Of a DNA stretch of 64,000 nucleotides, positions 1,618 to 35,884 are shown piece after piece. A program made the position numbers and the translations under genes. The first letter of the stretch is position 1. Every line of letters begins with the position of its first letter. Source of the DNA: Paludibacteraceae bacterium (GTDB lineage Bacteria > Bacteroidota > Bacteroidia > Bacteroidales > Paludibacteraceae); assembly GCA_024401475.1 (NCBI GenBank), contig JAKSKZ010000004.1, positions 1 to 64,000 of the forward strand. Direction: 5' to 3'. The notes under the pieces were generated by a model. The model was given only the letters and a program-made list of their open reading frames with translations. It had not been told where the DNA came from and did no database searches.

Positions 1618-3414
1618 TTATTTCTCGATTATCAATCTCTTGGTTATTGCCATATCTTGGGTGATTACTTGTATTAAGTAGTTGCTTGCCGCAAGATTGG
1701 AAATGTTGATCTCTAAATCGTTAGATGCGGCGGCCAATGACATTACGACTTCTCCTCTCATGGTCATTATCAGGACCTTTTCGATAGGGGAAGGTGTGCT
1801 GACCTTTACAGATGATTTTGCTGGATTAGGGTAGAGGTTGATGGTGTTTGCCTCTGCGTCGATTTTATTGAGATGGGAGGAACCGGGGAGGTCACCAGAG
1901 AATTTCACATAATCAAGATTGGTGTAGTCACTCAAGAATTGAACTTTGATGATGTGTTTTCCTGCTGGCAATGTTACTTTGTTTTTTGTGGAGATGGTTG
2001 AATAAGTGTCCCAATCCGCCGTCTTGTTTCCGCTGAGTACGCACAATTTCTCGTTGTCGAGTTGGAGTTCGATTTCGAAGTTTGAGTTTCCGTTAGAAGC
2101 GCTTGCTTCGATGTCGCATTCTACATTGGCAGGGACGTTGATCGTGTATTCCAACCATTCGCCCGATTTGGTATAGCCGATGGCATAACCTCCCTTCTTG
2201 TTGTCCACGATGTCAACGCCGTCCTCTCTGTAGGCTTTTCCTTCATTGATTTCGTCCGTGTCGTAGAAGGCATAACCTTCTCCACCCAAGTCGTAATCTT
2301 CTGCCTCAATTGTGCCTGGAATTTGGATAGGCGTGCCGCTATAAGGCGTTTGAGGAACATTGACGAAGAACTTAGTTTGAGCCTCCATTTCAGAGTTGTC
2401 TTCCATCGTGGCAACGGCTTTCAATACGTGGTTGCCCGAAACGGCCGTCCACTCTGTGCTCCAAGGCTCCGAGGTGAGGGTAGTCAAAGGCTCGTTGTCA
2501 AGTGTGAGTACGATCTGCTTGGCTTCAAGTTTGCCGCCCACTTTTATAGAAATAGGGAGGAGGTCACCGTCTGAGTATTTGCCTCCAGCAGAAGGGGAAG
2601 AGAAACTGATGCCGTTTGAATTTACCTTGCCGCAGTCGAGCGAGTAGTTCTTTACGAAATTCCAGATTTCGCGGCTTGTGTGTAATGCGCCGCTGTTGTT
2701 GTGCTCGTGGTCACGTCCGCTAAAAGAAATGCGGACAACTTCAGTTTCGCATTCTCCTCCGGTCCATACCTCTTTTTTGCAATTTGGGAAGCCGTTGTTG
2801 TACTGTGTTGTGGTGGCCGTCATGTTACAACCGTTGCGTTTTGCCCAGCCTTGCACGGCATTTCCCGAGCCTTCGTAGCCAACTACACTGTCGCTTGTAC
2901 CATGCACATGGATAAGGGGGATGGGCCTTGCGCTTTGGAAGGCTTGCCCTTGCATCAGGTATCCCGATACAGGTCCAAATGCCGCGATTCTATCGGCAAT
3001 CTTGTTCATGAGGTGGTAGGTGAGCATGCCGCCCATGGAGAATCCGGACATATAGACGCGGTTGGGGTCAATGCTGTACTTTTGTTGCATGGCATCAATG
3101 ATGGCGAGAATAAAGTTTACATCTTTGTCTCCGCTGATGTCCCATGTGGAGAATCCCGTGCCGCCGCCAGGATAAACGACGAGGAAGTTGGCCGTGTCTG
3201 CCACTTCTTCCCATTTTGCCATACCTCTTTGGTACTGAATGTCTTGGTCCATACCATGACAGGAAATCAACAATGGACGGTTGTCCGTCAAACCTTTAGG
3301 GGCGTGTACATAAAATTGTCTGTTTTGCCCTCCTACATTTACGGATTGCATTTCTGCAAAAGTTGCTGACGAAAACAGCAACGACACCAGAATGGTGAAG
3401 AAAACGTGTTTCAT
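1618..3414 (-). CDS. secreted CE1-type esterase (PHB depolymerase/feruloyl esterase-like) with CBM6 and T9SS sorting tail
   Basis: 598-residue modular exported enzyme. A signal peptide (about 1-20, ending ATFA) is followed by an alpha/beta-hydrolase domain (about 22-255) with the oxyanion strand LLISCHGMDQ and the nucleophile elbow GFSMGG. Next come an Ig-like linker (about 265-355), a CBM6 module beginning IPGTIEAEDYDLGGEG (about 365-505), and a C-terminal T9SS type A sorting domain (NLYPNPAKSSVKV... to LIIEK). The family cleaves ester side chains (feruloyl or acetyl groups on xylan) or polyhydroxyalkanoates. The CBM6 favours a plant polysaccharide target, which is an inference. The sorting domain predicts export through the outer membrane by T9SS. 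It has its own promoter and terminator. Confidence 0.9.
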   Translation of the reverse strand: MKHVFFTILVSLLFSSATFAEMQSVNVGGQNRQFYVHAPKGLTDNRPLLISCHGMDQDIQYQRGMAKWEEVADTANFLVVYPGGGTGFSTWDISGDKDVNFILAIIDAMQQKYSIDPNRVYMSGFSMGGMLTYHLMNKIADRIAAFGPVSGYLMQGQAFQSARPIPLIHVHGTSDSVVGYEGSGNAVQGWAKRNGCNMTATTTQYNNGFPNCKKEVWTGGECETEVVRISFSGRDHEHNNSGALHTSREIWNFVKNYSLDCGKVNSNGISFSSPSAGGKYSDGDLLPISIKVGGKLEAKQIVLTLDNEPLTTLTSEPWSTEWTAVSGNHVLKAVATMEDNSEMEAQTKFFVNVPQTPYSGTPIQIPGTIEAEDYDLGGEGYAFYDTDEINEGKAYREDGVDIVDNKKGGYAIGYTKSGEWLEYTINVPANVECDIEASASNGNSNFEIELQLDNEKLCVLSGNKTADWDTYSTISTKNKVTLPAGKHIIKVQFLSDYTNLDYVKFSGDLPGSSHLNKIDAEANTINLYPNPAKSSVKVSTPSPIEKVLIMTMRGEVVMSLAAASNDLEINISNLAASNYLIQVITQDMAITKRLIIEK

Positions 3415-3454
3415 GTTTTTTAGATAATTGGTTTAATGGTTTTATAGTTCGCCG

Positions 3455-3462
3455 CAAATATA
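3455..3462 (-). promoter_or_regulatory. -7 element of the esterase promoter
   Basis: The minus strand reads TATATTTG, matching the Bacteroidetes -7 consensus TAnnTTTG, about 40 bp upstream of the ATG at 3414. No clean -33 TTTG is seen. Confidence 0.5.
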
Positions 3463-3509
3463 CGGATATATTCTTGGAAAAAAAAGCCGTGATGCGATTT
3501 GACTTCCAT

Positions 3510-3540
3510 TTTGTTATCCCCAAAAAAGTCCGTACTTTTG
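3510..3540 (+). promoter_or_regulatory. canonical Bacteroidetes promoter
   Basis: TTTG at 3510-3513, a 19-bp spacer, then TACTTTTG at 3533-3540. It matches TTTG-N19-21-TAnnTTTG. Predicted start is near 3547, well upstream of the first surface-protein gene. Confidence 0.7.
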
Positions 3541-3546
3541 CCCGAA

Positions 3547-3710
3547 ATCAGTTTTAACGACTAATGAAAATTTATAATTTTATAAATTATTATAAATCAG
3601 TTAATTATATAATAAGGGAGGGTAAAATAACTTCCGCCTATATTCGTGTATATCAATATATAAGCCTTTCGTAGGTGTCTTCAGACTTCTGCGAAAGGCT
3701 TTTTGTTTTT
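3547..3710 (+). ncRNA. candidate short leader RNA or sRNA ending in an intrinsic terminator
   Basis: A consensus promoter (3510-3540) and a strong terminator (3662-3710) bracket about 160 nt with no convincing reading frame. The terminator lies upstream of the ATG at 3745, so transcription into the surface-protein genes must read through or start again. It could be an attenuating leader or an independent small RNA. Boundaries are predictions. Confidence 0.45.
3662..3710 (+). terminator. intrinsic terminator or attenuator ahead of the surface-protein genes
   Basis: Stem AAGCCTTTCG (3662-3671) with CGAAAGGCTT (3692-3701), followed by TTTTGTTTTT. It lies 35 bp before the ATG at 3745. Confidence 0.75.
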
Positions 3711-3744
3711 AGCATAATATATCATTCCAATAAATATTTAAATC

Positions 3745-4008
3745 ATGAAAAAGATAATTCTATTATTTTTCTCTCTTGTGTGCGCAATGAGTGCGTGGGC
3801 CGAGATCACTCCATCGAAGCCCGCAACGCTTGTTACAGCCGAGAACGCAGAAAGCCTCGGTCTTGAGGCAAGTTATGAAGGTTACTATGCCATCGCCAAT
3901 GCTGACCAGCTTTATTGGTTCGCTGGTCTGGTAAACGGCGATTTTACAGTTTGCGATGGTGTATCTGTAAAACAGGATACCTATACTCATAAAAATAAAT
4001 TTAATTGA
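3745..4008 (+). CDS. short exported protein, probably a truncated surface protein
   Basis: 87 residues with a clear signal peptide (MKKIILLFFSLVCAMSAWA). The following stretch, YYAIANADQLYWFAGLVNGD, resembles the opening of large Bacteroidales cell-surface proteins. The protein stops soon after, at YTHKNKFN, with no domain completed. The next gene starts 7 bp later with its own signal peptide, so this is probably the surviving 5' end of a larger gene rather than a complete small protein. A functional small secreted protein cannot be excluded. Confidence 0.5.
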   Translation: MKKIILLFFSLVCAMSAWAEITPSKPATLVTAENAESLGLEASYEGYYAIANADQLYWFAGLVNGDFTVCDGVSVKQDTYTHKNKFN

Positions 4009-4015
4009 ATATATT

Positions 4016-7000
4016 ATGAAGAAACTTTTTCAATTTTTACTCCCTCTGATGCTATGCCTCATCTGTGGCATAAGACCGGTGTCGGCGGCTGAGAACATCA
4101 CCACATGGGCAGAACTCAAGGCAGCCATGGAGAGTGCAACAGAGCCTACGACAATAGTGCTGACGCAGGATATTGTTGCAACGGCAGAGGACAAGGTAAT
4201 TTGGCCCGCTGCGACATCCATCGTACTCGATTTGAATGGTTACACGCTGGACAGAAACCTGTCTGAACCAAGTGATTACGGATGTGTGTTTTTTATATAT
4301 GGCAGCTTAATTGACTTGACCATCAAGGATAGTTCTCCTGCAAAGACGGGTGTCATTACAGGTGGTTATGCAACAGGTTGTGCTGGCTGTATCGAATTAT
4401 GGAGAGGATCACTTACTCTTCTTGGAGGAACCATCACTGGTAATAAAACTTTATATTATGGAGGTGGAATCGCCAAAATACCTACCGCAAAGCTTGTGGT
4501 AGGTGGCACAGCAAGGGTGATAGGCAACTATGCTTATGAAACGGACATTAAACAGTGGAATAGCGACATTCATTTCATTGACAATGTTTTAGACGGCTTC
4601 AGCTTTGCCACTGGCGATGATGCATTGGTGACCGAGGGCGAACACAAGGCACAGTTTGGTATCCGTTTTTGGACTGGCGCTGATATGCCAACAACGCTTT
4701 GGACACTTCCAAGTTATGAAACCGCAAGCTGTTTCGTTTCCAACAATCAGCGTGAGAAATATAGGACAAGCGTTGAAGAAGATGATGGGGAATTTCTCTT
4801 GTGTCTGACATTGCACGACCACGAGTTTGATGGAATAAAATGTACATCAGCGTGTGAATTGTGCGGAATGGTACGAGAGGATGGCATACACAACATGAAG
4901 GGTGAAGGATGCACTCAGGAATGCTCGTATTGCCATATTAAAGTCCATTCCAATGACATATATGATTCCAAGGGAATCTGCCCACAATGCAAGGCACATA
5001 GGGTGGATGACGAGACTTTGCTTGATTATCAGGGAGTGAGGTATAGGTTAAAAGTTGACAGCAAATTAAATACTTATGCTGAAGTATATGGATATGCTGA
5101 CGATATAAAAGAGAGTGTCGTCATACCTAAAACTATTGCGACAAGCAATGGCGTTTTTCGAGTTGCCAGCTTTGCAACTTTCTGTTTTCAAGGATGCACA
5201 AGGGTTAAGGATGTTGATATTCAGGCGGAAGTTACAGTTGTTGCGAATAATACATTTAAAGGTTGCAGCAACTTGACCAGTGTTGTAATTCCTAATAGTG
5301 TCACCGAATTTGGAACTCAGGTATTTATGGTTTGTAGTAGCTTGACAAACATAACAATTCCAGATGGTGTCACTAAAATTGGAGACGGCACATTTGGGCG
5401 TTGCAGTAAGTTGGTCAGTGTTGTAATTCCAAATGGTGTAACTGAAATTGAAGGCAGCACATTTGATGGTTGTAGCAGTCTGACAAGTATCAATCTTCCA
5501 GAGGGCTTGACGACAATTGGATATTATGCATTTCGTGGTTGTAGCAGTCTGGCAAGTATCAATCTTCCAGAGGGCTTGACGACAATTAGAAGTGATGCAT
5601 TTAATAATTGTAGCAGTCTGGCAAGTATCAATCTTCCAGAGGGCTTGACGACAATTGGATATTCTGCATTTTTTAATTGCTCTGCTTTGAAGAGCATAGT
5701 GATTCCAGGAAGTGTTCAGACTATTGACCATTTAGCGTTTAATTCAACTGGTCTGACCAGTGTGACAATCAATCAAGGTGTTGAAGAAATCGGAGGGCAT
5801 GATGTTTTTTCAAATTGTCTTAGTTTAACGGATGTTTCACTCCCTGGCAGTCTGAAAACTATTGGCCAAGGTATGTTTAGGGGTTGCAAAAGTATAGCTG
5901 AAATTGTGATTCCTAATGGAGTGGAAACCATTAAAAATAGTGCATTTAGCAACTGCACAAATCTGAAAAGTGTCACAATTCCAAGCAGTGTGATTAGTGT
6001 AAGCCGTACGGGCAACTCTACTTTCTATGGCTGCTCCAGCGACAAACTGGTGATAAACGTGGCTTGTACCGAATATCTCAACGAAGTTACTCCAGAGCAA
6101 TGGGGCAATATTAAGGAGATAAACAGGGTTCACGACTTCACTGCCGAAGAGGCAAAGGACGAGGCATTTAAGAGCGCGGCCACATGTCTTGACAAGGCTG
6201 TGTATTACAGAAGCTGCTCAACTTGTGGTCATGTCCATGAGAGCGATGACGATGTGTTTGAATATGGATCGGCTCTCGGTCACTCTTGGGGCGAATACGT
6301 TCTTGATGACGAGGAAATAGAGGATGGCCACAAGACAGCTAAATGTACCCGTGAAGGCTGCACAGCAACTAACACTATTGGCCACAAATGGGGCGAATAC
6401 GTTCTTGATGGCGACCAGACTTGCACAGAGGACGGTCATAAGACTGCACACTGCACTCGTACAGGCTGCACTGAGACTGACAAGATTGAAGCTACAGGTG
6501 CTGCTCTCGGACATGACTGGGAGGACTATTTTACCACAGACATTGCGGCAACATGCACAGAAGCAGGTAGTGAGTCGCGCCACTGCGCACGTTGCTCTGC
6601 AACAACAGACGTTGCACCTATAGTTGCTCACGGTCATTCATTCACCGACTACATCTCAAACGGCGACGCAACCACAGAGGCCGACGGCACCAAGACAGCT
6701 GTGTGTGACCATGGCTGCGGCGAGACACACACCGTCATCGACGAGGGCAGCCGAATAGGATTGCAAATTAAGGATTTCCAAATAGGAAAAGATATTACGC
6801 TATATTTAGAATCAGGCGTATGGGTCTGCTATGATCCAATCACCATCGAAGACGGTGTCGCCTTCAACTCGCCTGTCGATTTTGTGGCCGACAAGGTGGT
6901 TTACAGCCGTTTGGCTACCAAAGACACGATGAGCATCATCTTGCCTTTCGATGTGCCTGCCGACCGTTTGAACGGTGTTGCCTACAAGTTCACTTCGTTC

Positions 7001-24880: not shown

Positions 24881-25471
24881 TCAACCATTGTACTTTTTGA
24901 AATTTTCAGCTTGTTCCAAGACCTCCTTGTAAACTTCGTCATTCGTCACAGGTGGATAACCATGTTCCGCATTGTGGATGGTTGTCTCCTCCTTCACGGC
25001 GCTTTTGAATTCAAGCACCACCAATGGCAGTCCGTTCACAAAGACGATTCCGTCGGGAATGCGTCTTTCGGTCCCCTGAATCTCCAACTGATTGACGATT
25101 CGGAAAATATTGTTTTCAGGATGTTCGAAATCAATGGGTTGGATGAATAATGACGGTAGAGACGGTGTGCACACCGTCTCCAAAGCAACGTCACGTTTTA
25201 TGGAAAATCCTTCGGTTATCAGGCGGAAGGTGTTCACATTGTTGTCATACACCGAATTGCCTGAATTGGCGGAGAGGTGTGCAATTGCCTGCTCCACCTC
25301 CAGAGAGGTGATGTCGGCATAGCGTTTTTTCAGGAACATACGGATGTCGTCACGCAACAGCACGTCGGAGGCCTCCCGATGGAGTTCCTCGCCATTGGTG
25401 TAGATGTAGCCCTCCTGCTGGAAGAGCTCCATGATCGCCAGTTCTAAGGTATGTTCGTTGAAGATGGACAT
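24881..25471 (-). pseudogene. hsdR: N-terminal fragment of type I restriction subunit HsdR with in-frame palindrome
   Basis: 196 residues matching the start of HsdR: a helical N-terminus, then the nuclease core IPDGIVFVNGLPLVVLEFKSA. The frame stops after EQAENFKKYNG, whereas intact HsdR is about 900-1100 residues with a DEAD helicase, so this is a 5' remnant. Residues LETVCTPSLPS are encoded by a palindrome (25156-25180) inserted without breaking the frame. The intact ATG context and the retained open frame show that the palindrome was tolerated before, or independently of, the truncation. Confidence 0.85.
25156..25180. repeat. GTAG palindrome, copy 1 (inside hsdR remnant)
   Basis: Starts GTAGAGACGGTGTG and continues as its reverse complement to GTCTC. 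The outer TAC of the right end has become CAA. The inner 22 bp (25159-25180) are a perfect palindrome. Confidence 0.9.
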
Positions 25472-25525
25472 TCGTTATGTATTGATAGACAAAGATAAAG
25501 ATTTTTTTTAAAATGGAATGTTTCC

Positions 25526-25553
25526 GTAGAGACGTGGTGCGCCGCGTCTCTAC
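25526..25553. repeat. GTAG palindrome, copy 2 (supplies the RAYT stop codon)
   Basis: 28 bp, GTAGAGACG at each end in inverted orientation, with a variant centre (TGGTGCGCCG). The TAG stop of the RAYT gene (25550-25552 on the minus strand) is part of the GTAG at its right end. Confidence 0.9.
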
Positions 25554-26194
25554 AATTTATTAAATTCGTCCAAATGCCATTGGACAACATTGTTTTCGAT
25601 GTACGTGGCAATACGATTCAATTCATCCTGATCACGGACAATGCGATCATGGAAACGTGTTTGCCAGGCAAATGGAATGTTGTTGGTGTTGGCGTAATGG
25701 GTGATGGACCGTTTCAGACCTCCTACAACGACCGATAATCGGCCTTTGCATTTAGATATGATTTGCATTTGTACGTTTACGAAATCCAATTTCCATCGTT
25801 CACCCGTAGAGACGGTGTGCACACCGTCTCTACAACGCACCGCACCATCATTTTCACCATTTGCCGTGTCATTCCCATCAATTACCACAACCGCATGAAT
25901 ATGGTTGGGCATTACCACAAACAATGGTATTTCGGCGTACGGATAATGCGATTGTACGTTTACAAATTGTTTGTGGGCGTATTGACCAATTGGGGATAAT
26001 TGCATCTGTGATTCAGGTATTACCATTCCCGTAGAGACGGTGTGCACACCGTCTCTACAATCGGTTGTTATTTCCCCGAAATAATGTTCACGATTTTTGG
26101 TGCAAATGGTTACAAAATAGACGCCTCCATTGTAATTGTGCCAATTGGCACGCGCCGACGGTATGCGGTATTGGTTTTGATATTTTTCAGACAT
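25550..26194 (-). CDS. REP-associated tyrosine transposase (RAYT) carrying its own REP-like palindromes
   Basis: 214-residue Y1/HUH-type single-strand transposase. The divalent-metal HUH motif is MPNHIHAVV (about 115-123), and the preceding strand YFVTICTKNREHYFG is diagnostic. The catalytic Tyr is expected in the C-terminal helix, for example in RIATYIENN. Such enzymes bind hairpins preceded by a GTAG tetranucleotide and are thought to spread REP elements. Here two 28-bp GTAG palindromes (25806-25833 and 26031-26058) lie in the coding frame and are read as CRDGVHTVSTG each time; a third provides the stop codon and a fourth lies 60 bp upstream. One insert lies before and one after the HUH motif, so activity of the protein is uncertain. 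Confidence 0.88.
   Translation of the reverse strand: MSEKYQNQYRIPSARANWHNYNGGVYFVTICTKNREHYFGEITTDCRDGVHTVSTGMVIPESQMQLSPIGQYAHKQFVNVQSHYPYAEIPLFVVMPNHIHAVVVIDGNDTANGENDGAVRCRDGVHTVSTGERWKLDFVNVQMQIISKCKGRLSVVVGGLKRSITHYANTNNIPFAWQTRFHDRIVRDQDELNRIATYIENNVVQWHLDEFNKL
25806..25833. repeat. GTAG palindrome, copy 3 (in frame inside RAYT)
   Basis: Perfect 28-bp palindrome with half-site GTAGAGACGGTGTG. Identical to 26031-26058 and 28031-28058. Confidence 0.95.
26031..26058. repeat. GTAG palindrome, copy 4 (in frame inside RAYT)
   Basis: Perfect 28-bp palindrome with half-site GTAGAGACGGTGTG, encoding CRDGVHTVST in the RAYT frame. Confidence 0.95.
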
Positions 26195-26253
26195 AACAGA
26201 TATTTTTTTATTGTTAATTATTCATTTTTCGGTCGTTGTCGGTGGTTCCCCCC

Positions 26254-26281
26254 GTAGAGACGTGGCGCGCCGCGTCTCTAC
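26254..26281. repeat. GTAG palindrome, copy 5 (upstream of RAYT)
   Basis: 28 bp with GTAGAGACG at both ends and a centre TGGCGCGCCG, close to copy 2. Copies 2 and 5 therefore flank the RAYT gene as a matched variant pair. Confidence 0.9.
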
Positions 26282-26328
26282 AACAATGTGCCATCATATC
26301 CATACAAGGACGCATATCAATAATGATT

Positions 26329-27156
26329 TCACCTTATCTTCTGAGCCTTATCTAATCTTCGATGACAATATGATATAATCCCCAAAATTTCTAATGCATC
26401 CTGTTCTTCTATTTCCCAGTCAATTTTTGGTTCATGAGCAGTTGGATTCCTAAACATAGAACATAATCCTTTCAGTAAATTACAAAAACCATTGTGTTCG
26501 TTTTTCTCAGATGCAGTTTGATAATTATTGATAATTAAAATTGGATTAGAACTAAATACTTGTTCTATTAATTTATTCCCATCCTCTTGAACCAATGACA
26601 GATCTCGAATACGTTGAAATAGACCTTTATTAGCCTCCAACACAGAATGAAAATAATTATTTTGCAATAATTCTTCTTTGCAGTAATTAAATATCTGAAC
26701 ATGAGCTTTCCTGGCCTGAAGTTCTTGCTTAAGATTGTCCGTTTTAATTTTGACATCCGCAATAGTGGAAGCTCTTTCTATTTCTCTATATTGACCATTA
26801 TCTTTCAATTCATAACCAACAAATGCTAATTGTTGATTAATTAACATTCTTAGTCTTTCGTACTCTTGTTGATTGTTTACATACAAAGATGGATCCAGCA
26901 CTATAGAAATAAAATTCAATATGCCATTTGAACATTTCTGAGTATTCTGACATTCTACAAGAGCATTATACAACCTTATTCTTTTTGTGTTATTAGAATC
27001 AACATCTTCGATATTAGCCCTCTGTAGATATTTATGTATTTCGCTTCCCGTCAGCCCACTGTTTGTATCTCCAAGAACATTGCAAATAGATTCCAATACA
27101 TTTGCTGATATACATTTTCTTAAAATGGTCATACGCTTCTGTTTTTTACATTCCAA
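26329..27156 (-). CDS. TIGR02391-family protein associated with type I RM loci
   Basis: 275 residues. The C-terminal half matches the TIGR02391 (Ymh-like) signature: HNGFCNLLKGLCSMFRNPTA, HEPKIDW, then EEQDALEILGIISYCHRRLD. The N-terminal half is helical. The family has no proven activity but is recurrent in restriction and phage-defence neighbourhoods, and may act like small HEPN-type proteins; the RNP-like FRNPTAH stretch fits that idea without proving it. It overlaps the 3' end of hsdS by 11 bp, so it was part of the RM operon and remains intact while hsdM, hsdS and hsdR have decayed. Confidence 0.8.
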   Translation of the reverse strand: MECKKQKRMTILRKCISANVLESICNVLGDTNSGLTGSEIHKYLQRANIEDVDSNNTKRIRLYNALVECQNTQKCSNGILNFISIVLDPSLYVNNQQEYERLRMLINQQLAFVGYELKDNGQYREIERASTIADVKIKTDNLKQELQARKAHVQIFNYCKEELLQNNYFHSVLEANKGLFQRIRDLSLVQEDGNKLIEQVFSSNPILIINNYQTASEKNEHNGFCNLLKGLCSMFRNPTAHEPKIDWEIEEQDALEILGIISYCHRRLDKAQKIR

Positions 27157-28367
27157 TCTCTACCATTAGCAAAGATAGCATTTCTATTAAAATTTCGTTT
27201 TCTTGTGATTTTAAAGAAATAGAATCACAAAGAATTTTTGTTTTATCATTAAAAGATTTTATTGTATCAAGAGTAGGAATCAAAATCTTTTGCATTTCGA
27301 CTTCTCCTTTTGTTAGCGCTTCTCTAGTAGATCCGGATTCGCTTGCGGTTAGCAATTCTCTTTTTGTATTTTCATTATTGATTTGAAAAAGCAAGAAATA
27401 CTGACAATAAGCTTCTTTTGCTCTAATAATCATGACATGCTGATTAACTCTTGCTGGCAAAATATCGGATGGTACCATGCAACAACGTCCAACAGAAGCT
27501 CCTATAATATTCAACAATATATCCTCATCTTGTACAGTAATAGAACCTAATGCTTTTGCTTGACTCTCAGTAATATGAGCTAATTTCTCTCTTTCAAAAT
27601 AGTAGTCAAAAACATTCATGCTTCTAATCAAACTGATTCCTTCTCTCAAGTACGAATCTTTCCCCCCTTTGGGAGTAGAACCACTTCCTATCTTTGAGCA
27701 CACATCTCCCAGCGTCCCCATTCTCCATCCCTCCGGCAAATTCTCCACATCAATTCCATCCACAAACATCTTTCTATACAATGCTTGGGCGGCTTCCTCT
27801 AATTTGGTAATGGTTTGCTTGTTGTTGGCAATGCGGTTTTCTATCGCTTGATAGCGGTTTACTATGCGGCGCTACTCCTCAAGGGAAGGGAACGGGAAGC
27901 ATGACATTACACATTTCTTCCCAATCAAAAACCTCACGAGCGCTGCCATGCGAATGATAACGTGCATAACGATCAAATTCCGCACGACGGAACCACATCA
28001 TCAGATATTCGGGCAATAATTGGTCGCATTGTAGAGACGGTGTGCACACCGTCTCTACGGTATTGCACGTACCTACAATTTCAAACACAACGTATGCCTG
28101 CGAAATAATAGCAGGTTCATTGCCTGTATATAATGCAACGGTTATTTTCTCGCCATTTCTTGATGTCACGGGAACATAGGCAAACTGATTATGCTTTACA
28201 ATCTTGTAAGGTCGTAAATCTGTTCCAACCATATTGGCTATGGAAGGAATAAATTTTTTCGCAATGCTCAATCCCAAAAGATTAGAGCATTGCAAATCTT
28301 TATTCCTTACATCCACTTCACGGATATAATCCCCCAGACGCTTATATGTAGAGTTGTTGTTAGTCAT
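27146..28367 (-). pseudogene. hsdS: type I specificity subunit HsdS, split by frameshift and nonsense codon
   Basis: Two target-recognition domains remain: residues from 28367 (NSTYKRLGDYIREVDVRNKD...) and from about 27740 (LPEGWRMGTLGDVCSKIGSGS). The first half ends prematurely at MLPVPFP (27879). Reading one frame over continues as PSLEE-stop-RRIVNRYQAIENRI..., where EEQRRIV is expected. There is thus one extra base near 27885 plus a CAG to TAG change. The downstream half is open from about 27860 to 27146. A GTAG palindrome (28031-28058) lies in frame in the first domain, read as VETVCTPSLQ. HsdS cannot be made as one chain. Confidence 0.88.
28031..28058. repeat. GTAG palindrome, copy 6 (in frame inside hsdS)
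   Basis: Perfect 28-bp copy, half-site GTAGAGACGGTGTG, translated VETVCTPSL in this gene. This is a different reading frame from that used in RAYT. Confidence 0.95.
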
Positions 28368-28382
28368 TAATAAATCTTTATA

Positions 28383-28415
28383 ATTCTTTCCAATTTACAA
28401 AGAATTGGAAAGAAT
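28383..28415. promoter_or_regulatory. inverted repeat upstream of hsdS
   Basis: ATTCTTTCCAATT (28383-28395) with its perfect inverse (28403-28415), 7-nt centre. It overlaps the last codons of fic (NTILSNSL-stop) and lies 16 bp upstream of the hsdS ATG. A near copy lies at the start of fic. Operator-like. Confidence 0.6.
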
Positions 28416-29774
28416 CGTATTGAAATCCTCACTTCTTGTATATCCTTTCTTCACATCGTTTAATGCGATTTCCTTAAGATATCCCTTTTCAATTAGTCCG
28501 ACTATATCTGTCTTTGCAGTTGTTGCAGTAACTCCGAAATGAATTTGAAAATCTTTCACGAAATATGTCTTATTTGGATTTTTCACATACAACCTCAATA
28601 TCTCTGCTTGTCTTTGGTTTATACCGCCAATCCGCAAGAATTTGTCTGCATCATTTCTTTCTGAACTCTTTCTTTGAAGATATGACTGAAGCTCTACAAA
28701 CGACTCCTTCAAAACTTTCAAATGATACAATATGAAATATCCTATGTCGTTTCCATCTGCTTCCGCATACAAATATGCCTTTTCATAATCATTTTTCCTT
28801 TTGTATATGATCCTAGAAATTGACATGTATTCCATTAGCCAATATCCTTCCTTTAGCATATACCAGTAGAATATTGCTCTTGCAGTTCTTCCATTTCCAT
28901 CCACAAAAGGATGCATATAAGCAATCATAAAATGAAGAATAATACCCTTTATGATTGGATGTACAAACAACTCACCATCTTTAGCATTGAAATAATCGCA
29001 GAAAATTTTTACAAATGATTGAATTTCCGTATGCGACGGTGGTGTATGTACCACTTCGTTTTTAGTGTCATCTACTACCACTACATCATCATTGCCTCTG
29101 AATTGCCCGCAATCCTTAGGATTGTCAAGCGTGTTTTCGGTCATAAGCGAATGAATATGAAGCAAAGCCTCTTCTGTCAAGGACTGATCTTTATGATCTG
29201 AGATATAACGAATTGTGTTATAATTATTCAAGATCATTTGTTGTGCTTTGTCCCTTGGCTTCAATCCCTTCCTTAACATTTCTTTCGCTACTTTTCTGGT
29301 AGTGGAAGCTCCTTCCATTTGGCTTGAAGCAATCGCTTCTTCCATCAAAGTACTTACCAGATATTTGTGTTTGTCTTCAGATTGCAAAAGCGAATCATTC
29401 CCTAAAACGCCACCGAAATTCAAGTCAAACTCATGACATAGACTCTGCATTTTGTTTGTCAGTCCAAAATGAATATTATAGTGCTCCCATTCCGATATCT
29501 CTTTAATTTGTAGCAATCTATCAAGTTTCACTCTCATCCATAATTCTTCAGGAGTACATCCATCTGGACTCTTTTTATATTTTACCTTGTTCCAGTACAA
29601 ATATTCTTCATTGATAGACCGCACAAATGACCACAATTCTTTATTCTCACTAAGAGTCAAGAACTGTTCTGTCATTTCTACATTAGAAAAATGTGGCGCA
29701 ATTTCAATCATATCGTAAGTTTTGTAATTCTTTCCAATTTTTACAAAATTAGAAAGAATTGGAATGTTTTCCAA
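28395..29774 (-). CDS. Fic-domain protein (probable AMPylase), class II
   Basis: 459 residues. The Fic core HPFVDGNGRTAR (about residue 290) is complete, with the invariant His. An inhibitory helix motif SSQMEGAS (about 155-162) lies N-terminal to it, as in class II Fic proteins, where the Glu blocks ATP. A C-terminal winged-helix (KTYFVKDFQIHFGVTATTAK, then LIEKGYLKEI) suggests DNA binding and autoregulation. Fic enzymes transfer AMP to target proteins. The start may be 29774 or the ATG at 29711; the first 20 codons coincide with an inverted repeat (29726-29760), so a true start at 29711 with an operator upstream is attractive. It stands between RM remnants and looks intact. Confidence 0.88.
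   Translation of the reverse strand: MENIPILSNFVKIGKNYKTYDMIEIAPHFSNVEMTEQFLTLSENKELWSFVRSINEEYLYWNKVKYKKSPDGCTPEELWMRVKLDRLLQIKEISEWEHYNIHFGLTNKMQSLCHEFDLNFGGVLGNDSLLQSEDKHKYLVSTLMEEAIASSQMEGASTTRKVAKEMLRKGLKPRDKAQQMILNNYNTIRYISDHKDQSLTEEALLHIHSLMTENTLDNPKDCGQFRGNDDVVVVDDTKNEVVHTPPSHTEIQSFVKIFCDYFNAKDGELFVHPIIKGIILHFMIAYMHPFVDGNGRTARAIFYWYMLKEGYWLMEYMSISRIIYKRKNDYEKAYLYAEADGNDIGYFILYHLKVLKESFVELQSYLQRKSSERNDADKFLRIGGINQRQAEILRLYVKNPNKTYFVKDFQIHFGVTATTAKTDIVGLIEKGYLKEIALNDVKKGYTRSEDFNTILSNSL
29726..29760. promoter_or_regulatory. inverted repeat at the 5' end of fic
   Basis: AATTCTTTCCAATTTT (29726-29741) with its inverse (29745-29760), one mismatch, 3-nt centre. It shares ATTCTTTCCAATT with the repeat at 28383-28415, so fic and hsdS each have the same operator-like element near their start. 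Confidence 0.6.
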
Positions 29775-32712: not shown

Positions 32713-33993
32713 ATGCATAGTAAAAAAAATCATATCGGAATACTTCCCGTATCAGAGTGCTTACAGCTTAAACTCTCGATACCGGAGTACCAAAGACCAT
32801 ATAAATGGAGTGTTCAAAGTATAGACGATATGCTTTGGGATATCAACAATTCCATTCACCAAAGCTTTGCTTTTGGTGAATACAAATATCGTATTGGTAC
32901 TATCATCCTACATAAGTCAGATGATGTATTTAATGTGGTTGACGGCCAACAACGTCTAATTTCACTTACTCTTATATCAAAGTACCTTGACGAAGATTTT
33001 GACAATTCAATTCTTCGTACAACATTCTACGATAAGATTACACAAAAGCATATTCACGAGAATTTCATCCATATTAATGAATGGTTCTCGCTACGAGACC
33101 AAGACACGAAGGAATCTTTTAAAAAGGCATTGTGTGAAGTACTAGAAGTCGTGGTAATACAAGTAGGGAAAGAATCCGAAGCATTCCAATTGTTTGATTC
33201 ACAAAACACTCGTGGTCGTGCTCTTGATCCTCATGATTTGCTGAAAGCATTTCATCTCCGAGAGATGCAAAACGACAAATATGAGATGGAATATGCAGTA
33301 ACGAAATGGGAGGCGAAAGATGTCGCTCAAATACGAGAATTATTTTCTGCATATCTATTTCCTATTTGGAACTGGTCACGAGGTGCTAAGACATGGACAT
33401 TTACCGATCATGATATTGACACCTACAAAGGCATTCCTTCAAGCTCAACATATACCTATGCTCGACGTGCTGGCAAGGCTTCGCCATTCTTTCAGCTGAC
33501 AGAACCATTTATTGCTGGTTCTGATTTCTTTGATATGGTAGATCATTACATGAGAACTTTGGTCAATATCAAACAAGAACTTGCTACTAATCCTGCATTT
33601 GAGATACTCCACCCGTTCTGTCTACCTACTAAGCACTCTTCTGCTGGTCTTACACATGTTCGTAATCTTTTCTTTGCCGTATTATTGTTTTACTACGACA
33701 AATTCCATAATATGGACGAATTGGCTGTGAAGAAATTATTCAAATGGGCGTTCATGTTGCGTTTGGATTTACACAATTTAGGTTCTGATTCCGTCAACAA
33801 ATATGCCATAGGAGAATGGTCGGGCAATTATACAAATTACATACCTGTATTCTCCAAGATAAGTTTGGCTCGTCTACACACAGAAATAGGTAATCTTCAA
33901 ATAGCAATTGGTGCACGATTCCTCGAAACTGAAGAACAAAAAAATCTGTACATATTATTGCAAAAACTAAGTGGTTATGAAGAATGCAAATAA
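32713..33993 (+). CDS. DUF262 protein without HNH domain (GmrS-like)
   Basis: 426 residues. The DUF262 core is clear: LSIPEYQRPYKWSVQSIDDM near residue 25 and VVDGQQRLISLTLI near residue 80, the nucleotide-binding/hydrolysing DGQQR motif. Unlike the next gene it lacks a C-terminal DUF1524 HNH motif. DUF262 proteins act in modification-dependent (type IV) restriction such as GmrSD and in other phage defences. The gene overlaps its partner by 17 bp, so the two are probably made in fixed ratio and act together. Confidence 0.85.
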   Translation: MHSKKNHIGILPVSECLQLKLSIPEYQRPYKWSVQSIDDMLWDINNSIHQSFAFGEYKYRIGTIILHKSDDVFNVVDGQQRLISLTLISKYLDEDFDNSILRTTFYDKITQKHIHENFIHINEWFSLRDQDTKESFKKALCEVLEVVVIQVGKESEAFQLFDSQNTRGRALDPHDLLKAFHLREMQNDKYEMEYAVTKWEAKDVAQIRELFSAYLFPIWNWSRGAKTWTFTDHDIDTYKGIPSSSTYTYARRAGKASPFFQLTEPFIAGSDFFDMVDHYMRTLVNIKQELATNPAFEILHPFCLPTKHSSAGLTHVRNLFFAVLLFYYDKFHNMDELAVKKLFKWAFMLRLDLHNLGSDSVNKYAIGEWSGNYTNYIPVFSKISLARLHTEIGNLQIAIGARFLETEEQKNLYILLQKLSGYEECK

Positions 33994-35884
33994 AGTTTCA
34001 GAATTACATATACTAAGTGCCGATTCATCCATTTTTAATTCGGTCAAATATAGTATTCCACTATATCAGCGTGATTATGCATGGGAAGAGAAACAGATTG
34101 TACAACTCATTGAAGACATAGACGATGTAAATCTAGGAGAGAATTACTACATAGGTTCGTTGATTGTTGCCAACCACAATGATTCTTATGAAGTTGTGGA
34201 TGGACAACAGCGTCTTACTACATTGTTTCTCCTTTTGAGTTATTTAGGGCTCAATGAAGGAAATGAAGAAGCATTATCTTTTAGTTGTCGAGACAAATCA
34301 AACTACACCCTGCGCCACATCAAACCTATATTGGCTGACGAACGCGACAAGTACGATGCAGACCACCTACAGCAGAATATCATAAGCGGTTTAAATATCA
34401 TCAAAGAAAATATTGAAAAGTTTACCGATGAGCACAGGATTGCATTTGTAAAGAAACTGCATAACGTTGTTATTTATCGCATAGAAGTTCCAGAGCATAC
34501 GGATTTGAACCATTATTTTGAGATAATGAACACCCGTGGTGAGCAGTTGGAACAAAGTGATGTACTAAAAGCCCGATTAATGAGTGAGCTGCAAGGCAAT
34601 AAGAAGGATCAGCAGGTTTTCGCTACTATATGGGATGCATGTCGAGATATGTCTGGATATGTTCAGATGCACTTTACGCCTACTCAGCGAGGAGAATTGT
34701 TCAGTTGGGATTGGGCACAGATTCCATCACATAGAATGTCCGACTACAGAAATTTGCCTCAAACGTCATCATCAAAAACAGGAGCAAAGATTTCCGAGAT
34801 AATACGTCCGGATTTTAGCGTCGAAAAAGACGATGGTAGTTTGGATGACGATACAAGAGTACGATTCGAAAGCGTTATCGAGTTCCCATATTTCTTGTTA
34901 CATGCACTTAAAGTATATCTTTCAATTCATCCGGAAATTAAGCATAAAGATGGAGGAAAGCTTATAGATGAACTACTTGATGACAAGAAACTTACTTCTG
35001 CATTTGAACGTATTCTGGATTATGGAACAATCAATGGAGAGTCTTTAGACCGCTCAAAATTTTCCAGAGGATTCATGGTATGTTTGCTTCGTACCAGATA
35101 CTTGTTTGACAAATATATCATCAAACGAGAGTACGCCAACGAATCGTCAGATGGCGAATGGAGTTTAAAGTCTTTGTTTGTATCTGGTCAGCAATCGCAT
35201 AAGAAAGCTTACTTTGCAAACACTCGTTTCTCGGCTTCTAAACAATGGGCATCTACAAGCAAATGGTATCATCCAGACAATCTGATGCTACAGGCAGCTC
35301 TTCGTGTATCTTATACGTCTCCGAAAGTTATGCATTGGATAACACAGTTACTGATTTGGTTATCGCAAAATGTCGACAAACTTGATACTAATATCCCTCA
35401 CTATACAGATGCTATCAATGAAATAGCCAAAAGACCAGTGCGTGAATTTCTTAACAATGAGGATTATTCACTTGGCGTCAATACACCACATGTGGTGCTA
35501 AATTATCTTGATTTTCTGCTATGGAGAGGCAAATACAATAGAAATGTTGAATTTGATTTCGAGTTCCGCAATTCTGTCGAACATTGGTACCCACGTAATC
35601 CATCAGAAGGAACATTCGATCGTTGGGAGGATGATGTTGACAGATTTGGAAATTTATGCCTAATACAGCGTAATATTAATTCCAGATTCTCAAACATGTC
35701 ACCTGAAGCAAAGAAAAGTACCTTTAAGGAAATGATCAAGAAAGGTAGTTTAAAACTACGAATCATGAGTGATCTAACCCAAGGAGCCAACGCAAGTCTG
35801 CAATGGAAAGAGTCTATCTTTGCTCAACATGAAGAAGACATGCTTGATTTACTAAGAAAAGAAACCGAGATTATAAGTGAGTAA
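33977..35884 (+). CDS. DUF262/DUF1524 HNH nuclease-like protein (GmrSD-like)
   Basis: 635 residues. The N-terminal DUF262 has YSIPLYQRDYAWEEKQIVQL and VVDGQQRLTTLFLLLSYL. The C-terminal DUF1524 has the HNH-type SVEHWYPRNP (about residue 555) followed by DRFGNLCLIQRNINSRFSN. Together they form a fused GmrSD-like protein that would use NTP hydrolysis to license DNA cleavage. The ATG at 33977 lies inside the end of the preceding DUF262 gene. Pairing of an HNH-less and an HNH-bearing DUF262 protein suggests a two-component complex. Confidence 0.87.
   Translation: MKNANKVSELHILSADSSIFNSVKYSIPLYQRDYAWEEKQIVQLIEDIDDVNLGENYYIGSLIVANHNDSYEVVDGQQRLTTLFLLLSYLGLNEGNEEALSFSCRDKSNYTLRHIKPILADERDKYDADHLQQNIISGLNIIKENIEKFTDEHRIAFVKKLHNVVIYRIEVPEHTDLNHYFEIMNTRGEQLEQSDVLKARLMSELQGNKKDQQVFATIWDACRDMSGYVQMHFTPTQRGELFSWDWAQIPSHRMSDYRNLPQTSSSKTGAKISEIIRPDFSVEKDDGSLDDDTRVRFESVIEFPYFLLHALKVYLSIHPEIKHKDGGKLIDELLDDKKLTSAFERILDYGTINGESLDRSKFSRGFMVCLLRTRYLFDKYIIKREYANESSDGEWSLKSLFVSGQQSHKKAYFANTRFSASKQWASTSKWYHPDNLMLQAALRVSYTSPKVMHWITQLLIWLSQNVDKLDTNIPHYTDAINEIAKRPVREFLNNEDYSLGVNTPHVVLNYLDFLLWRGKYNRNVEFDFEFRNSVEHWYPRNPSEGTFDRWEDDVDRFGNLCLIQRNINSRFSNMSPEAKKSTFKEMIKKGSLKLRIMSDLTQGANASLQWKESIFAQHEEDMLDLLRKETEIISE

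Follow-up and report, generated by a model that had tools for sequence, protein, structure and literature searches.

Can a mobile palindrome become part of the proteins whose genes it enters? The question is raised by the window analysed here, a stretch of 64,000 nucleotides from a Paludibacteraceae bacterium, in which six copies of a 28-bp palindrome (pattern GTAGAGAC-N12-GTCTCTAC, with at most three mismatches) lie within 3 kb, at 25156-28058, whereas shuffled sequence is expected to give 0.1 matches and never gave six. The copies and the genes that surround or contain them are as follows.

24881-25471, minus strand: hsdR remnant (Pfam HSDR_N 4-164 and T1RH-like_C 168-193)
25156-25183: REP palindrome in the hsdR remnant, LETVCTPSLP; core GGTGTGCACACC, one foot decayed to GTCTCCAA
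25526-25553: REP palindrome with the second core (GTGGYGCGCCGC), giving the RAYT stop codon TAG
25550-26194, minus strand: RAYT (TnpA-REP), an HUH single-strand transposase of 214 aa (NCBIfam NF047646, fold match 4er8)
25806-25833: REP palindrome in RAYT, residues 121-130, CRDGVHTVST; core GGTGTGCACACC, loop after the HUH strand
26031-26058: REP palindrome in RAYT, residues 46-55, CRDGVHTVST; core GGTGTGCACACC, loop after HYFGEI
26254-26281: REP palindrome with the second core (GTGGYGCGCCGC), upstream of RAYT
26329-27156, minus strand: Hypoth_ymh-family gene between RAYT and hsdS (Pfam PF09509, E=5e-38)
27146-27871, minus strand: 3' part of a broken hsdS, second specificity domain (Pfam Methylase_S); the open frame resumes after a TAG
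27879-28367, minus strand: 5' part of the broken hsdS, first specificity domain, homologous to the intact HsdS of L356, L357 and L358
28031-28058: REP palindrome in hsdS, VETVCTPSLQ; core GGTGTGCACACC, loop before PEYLMMWF
28395-29774, minus strand: gene with a Fic domain, upstream of hsdS (the operon of relatives includes a RhuM/Fic gene)

The minus-strand translations bear out the preliminary description of an in-frame coding insertion in three genes: the palindrome is read in this way twice in RAYT and once each in hsdR and hsdS. One of its frames contains TAG and two are open, as had been stated; the frame with TAG is used as well, in that the GTAG of the second-core copy at 25526 supplies the stop codon of RAYT (TTG TAG). 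One core is common to four of the six copies and the second is found in the other two, while the feet, GT[AG]G (5') and C[TC]AC (3'), are perfect in five. The folded palindrome is a 12-bp hairpin with GTAG and CTAC feet (-12.1 kcal/mol, z -6). It is a double-foot GTAG REP of the type that accompanies subclass 2.4 of the TnpA-REP/RAYT proteins. Either orientation of insertion had been taken as equivalent, but the unit is not fully symmetric: AA or TT lies just outside a foot in 87 of 126 distinct copies among the matches listed, against 15% expected, which implies that the unit has polarity.

Both the class of element and its in-frame behaviour are already published (PMC6006769; PMC3733652). 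Subclass 2.4 RAYTs are found in Bacteroidetes and Cyanobacteria, have double-foot REPs and carry in-frame REPs inside their own genes (Quentin et al. 2018, PMC6006769). The locus resembles them in its GTAG...CTAC double foot, in the NHIH, WQ and YI-NN motifs, in its Bacteroidetes host and in the REP at RAYT residues 121-130, which lies in frame between HUH and Tyr. It differs in that the RAYT loop after HYFGEI serves as a second insertion site, and in that RAYT is found inside type I restriction-modification (R-M) loci whose hsdS and hsdR contain in-frame REPs. The passages of Di Nocera et al. (2013, PMC3733652) that treat GTAG and CGTC REPs describe in-frame copies in many genes and proteins, feet that give stop codons and a mostly intergenic distribution, a description that the present repeats match. 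The Bacteroidetes repeats in those passages are of the CGTC kind only, without GTAG, whereas GTAG is found here in Bacteroidales; a frame count and a comparison with empty orthologues are added to that account. CGTC repeats are described there as having no association with a transposase gene. The likeness to Rickettsia palindromic elements suggested in the preliminary description extends to palindromes in frame in functional genes (RPE-4, RPE-6 and RPE-1, as treated in the same passages) and not to the class of element: the Rickettsia elements have CGTC-tagged ends, are alphaproteobacterial and differ in sequence, whereas the window palindromes have GTAG feet and lack the CGTC tag. The hosts, the in-frame count, the reuse of the same loops and the slots whose core differs between homologues are new.

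The RAYT family consists of IS200/IS605-like single-strand transposases. The RAYT of the window is intact, with both inserts in place, and has the NHIH and WQ motifs and the Tyr motif YIENN; the final P of the Tyr motif YIxNNP is absent in this protein (YIENNV). Its match to NF047646 (E=1.5e-14, 54.1 bits against a curated cut-off of 80) has its best stretch after the second insert, and an insert-free homologue scores 61.5. The Pfam profile search missed the gene, which was found by NCBIfam and by fold search. The top Foldseek match of the predicted fold in the PDB is 4er8, a TnpA-REP bound to a REP hairpin (E=1.9e-5); the phmmer match of the sequence to the same entry is marginal. The predicted structure gives the insert loops a pLDDT below 50, including residues 47-57, while much of the core exceeds 90. 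Comparison with the RAYT of the Bacteroidales contig L034, in which both inserts are found at matching positions, yields a dN/dS of 0.21, a ratio that indicates purifying selection on the decorated protein. Approximately 230 nt of RAYT are identical in the window (25850-26110) and L034 (5954-6240, approximate), and the remainder is ~80% identical, which suggests recent recombination; the identical stretch includes one palindrome and was excluded from the evidence for selection on the palindrome.

Of 30 RAYT loci taken from the window's genome and its relatives, at least 14 have an in-frame internal REP, which is read in either frame and mostly occupies the loop that follows the HUH strand, less often the one after HYFGEI. 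The differing frames point to insertions that reached the same tolerant loop several times independently. Among the RAYTs sampled, the core that the gene carries is the commonest core of its own genome (GATGTGCACATC in G001, GGTGTGCACACC in G003), which, together with the six copies in and around RAYT, upholds the proposed link between palindrome and RAYT. From the IS200/IS605-like family and the matched cores, we infer that RAYT mobilises the repeat. The protein encoded at 25550-26194 would presumably recognise, cut and copy the single-stranded hairpin with its GTAG feet, and new copies would land near RAYT and elsewhere. Copy number in the window's genome counts against this explanation: a pattern scan of the 3.6-Mb assembly found the palindrome in only nine places, the 25156-28058 cluster included, and congeners have 17-25 places each.

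The internal copies might instead be kept for a function: by binding the hairpin within its gene or mRNA, RAYT would regulate itself or its hsd neighbours. Such a role would suit the finding that RAYTs of many genera have a REP in the same loop, with two frames in use and cores that differ, and the fact that a REP supplies the RAYT stop codon in L034 as well as in the window. It is unlikely, given that RAYTs without an internal REP exist (for example, L013 and L031), that the loop is predicted to be poorly ordered and that inserts in unrelated proteins point to tolerance.

The hsd genes, presented as hosts in the preliminary description, are hosts in relatives and are not working genes in the window, where both are broken for reasons other than the palindrome. 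Alignment to the full-length HsdR of L034 reveals that the first ~165 residues of the window hsdR ORF are joined in frame to the last ~30, with ~850 deleted, and hsdS is interrupted by a frameshift and a TAG near 27870-27882. A methylase motif NPPY/F was not found at 22-42 kb. Two adjacent GmrSD-type genes, at 32713-33993 and 33971-35884, lie near the broken hsd genes, and together these genes are a possible defence island.

The counterpart of this locus in G067, a genome of another genus of the same family, is open throughout: the genes hsdM-RhuM/Fic-hsdS-RAYT-hsdR encode 525, 327, 386, 214, and 1080 aa, and REPs are present in hsdS, RAYT and hsdR. The palindrome of this intact hsdS is identical to that of the window and occupies the same loop just before PEYLMMWF, and hsdR carries a variant (VETWRAASLR) in the same loop as in the window hsdR. 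In the full-length L034 HsdR (1067 aa), that loop holds the palindrome as well, read in the other frame. Some orthologues lack the insert at these sites: the hsdS loop is filled in the intact gene of L357 and empty in L356 and L358, and the hsdR site is empty in L198, which shares 79% identity with the L034 query, and in L200. Since the same loops are filled in some orthologues and empty in others, the effect of an in-frame REP on fitness is open to direct test.

The window, UBA1715, G067, G071 and G083 all have a RAYT or its remnant either between hsdS and hsdR or immediately 5' of hsdR, and the L034 RAYT at 5704-6351 adjoins hsdR at 2410-5610. The association of RAYT with type I R-M loci is recurrent, and this placement in several genera, along with REPs inside both hsdS and hsdR, would be expected if the palindromes served the restriction system, perhaps by providing sites at which recombination shuffles the specificity of hsdS. 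Such a service is highly improbable: the same REPs are mostly intergenic and are also found inside many unrelated genes, and a second hsdS cassette was not noticed at this locus.

The behaviour of the palindrome in other genomes was surveyed by scanning GTDB genomes with exact 28-mers, which returned at least 119 stretches, those listed all being Bacteroidales or Bacteroidia by record title. Because the scan behind L034-L152 selects exact 28-mers, identity of the palindrome in these contigs is uninformative, and the counts represent a sample. At least 135 exact copies are found in other Bacteroidales contigs; a total of 138 includes three IMG/VR contigs, L153, L154 and L155, which also hold the exact palindrome and are viral by database label. 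Coding signal and an open frame on both sides are present for 33 of the 135. Among the matches listed, all 33 are in frame, with none shifted and none stopped, and they are read in two frames only; this count is without RAYT copies, as the coding scorer misses RAYTs. The hosts are full-length and include HsdR, RmlB (481.7 bits, cut-off 365.1), an ADP-ribose hydrolase (366.6, cut-off 272), U32, AlkZ-like, MmeI-like, GH106 and T9SS proteins, so that the proposal that in-frame insertions add a peptide without killing the gene is borne out among these matches. A slightly looser scan gives at least 39 in-frame copies, in two phases and in ~14 unrelated host families, and it is the families rather than the copies that form the independent number for statistics. 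Under random frame and phase, 2/9 of events would be tolerated, and 14 of 14 is by our arithmetic very unlikely to arise by chance.

Genic copies are depleted ~2.4-fold among the matches listed: 33/135 are genic, compared with 58% of positions drawn at random and judged in the same way. About three quarters of these copies are not genic and are dispersed, and in the window's genus nearly all non-RAYT copies are intergenic. The refuting case named in the preliminary description, with almost all copies intergenic and those in genes confined to pseudogenes, would half apply if the window alone were considered, but it fails given the intact G067 operon and the other intact hosts. A related view is that genic copies only ride along in dying genes, as ordinary intergenic REPs that have landed in pseudogenes as well. 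The deleted hsdR and frameshifted hsdS of the window, the intergenic majority and its near-totality outside RAYT within the same genus all favour it; the 33 in-frame copies in conserved full-length proteins, the filling of the same hsdS and hsdR loops in an intact operon and the purifying selection on RAYT oppose it and leave it quite unlikely.

Very probably, the REP is the non-autonomous partner of RAYT, and its genic copies survive only in frame and in tolerant loops. Selection would spare those genic copies that keep the frame, are read in frame 0 (VETxxxxSL) or frame 1 (xRDxxxxVST) and lie in a surface loop that tolerates them, while frame 2, with its TAG, would survive only as the stop codon of a gene. 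The outcome would be short, presumably neutral peptides added to RAYT, HsdS, HsdR and other proteins. A REP foot seemingly forms the stop codon of the upstream gene in L001 (5880-5935), L047 (4199), L133 (7785) and L135 (991). A RAYT-linked REP regularly becomes coding sequence in intact genes of gut Bacteroidales, including those for restriction and core metabolic enzymes, and the frame filter on its genic copies has been measured. Short odd peptides in proteins predicted from Bacteroidales, CRDGVHTVST and VETVCTPSL among them, can be explained as element-derived.

The net length of the insertions was expected to be a multiple of three, which the orthologue comparison supports, without the fixed 28 or 30 nt of a simple unit. 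Relative to empty orthologues, hsdR gains about 7, 13 and 14 residues, hsdS 6 to 7 and 14 to 15, RmlB 6, and a type III Mod-like methyltransferase about 16. U32 proteins gain 3 and 4, and at one of their sites the palindrome replaces ~6 residues. Overall, gains span 3-16 residues in whole codons and are never the ~10 of a clean insertion, which weighs against the explanation preferred here. Target bases may have been lost at insertion or the loops trimmed later, both being possible; a precise empty site with its junction was not recovered in these comparisons.

Some in-frame palindromes occupy sites at which the core differs between homologous proteins. Four cores occur at a single codon position of T9SS sorting domains (YPNPTNGVLF followed by VETxxxxSLP), and in each of them 12-14 of the 14 pairs are complementary. 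One site of U32 peptidases carries GCGATTAATCGC or GCACGGCCGTGC, two REP families at almost the same position, and the L100 site has a compensating paired change from G-C to A-T. The intergenic copies between serC and serA gave no evidence of core turnover, as the flanks beside the palindrome do not align. A tentative reading, for which the odds are rather against than in favour, is that in-frame palindromes are fixed protein slots whose core is later rewritten whole, both arms together, possibly through conversion between REPs, through RAYT activity or through correction templated by the hairpin. The T9SS and U32 pattern is consistent with a fixed slot whose core is replaced; a conserved target that received several insertions is also possible. 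If slots are rewritten in this way, turnover of a mobile element at the level of DNA would repeatedly edit a protein loop.

Two further arrangements were observed among the copies. In the serC-serA intergenic region of G003 (L267, 772-840), a palindrome is nested in the halves of an older palindrome, which suggests, from its sequence, a REP inserted into a REP. To the left of position 801 in L277, three half-palindromes in tandem (GTAGGGACGGTGGGCA...) lie beside a full copy.
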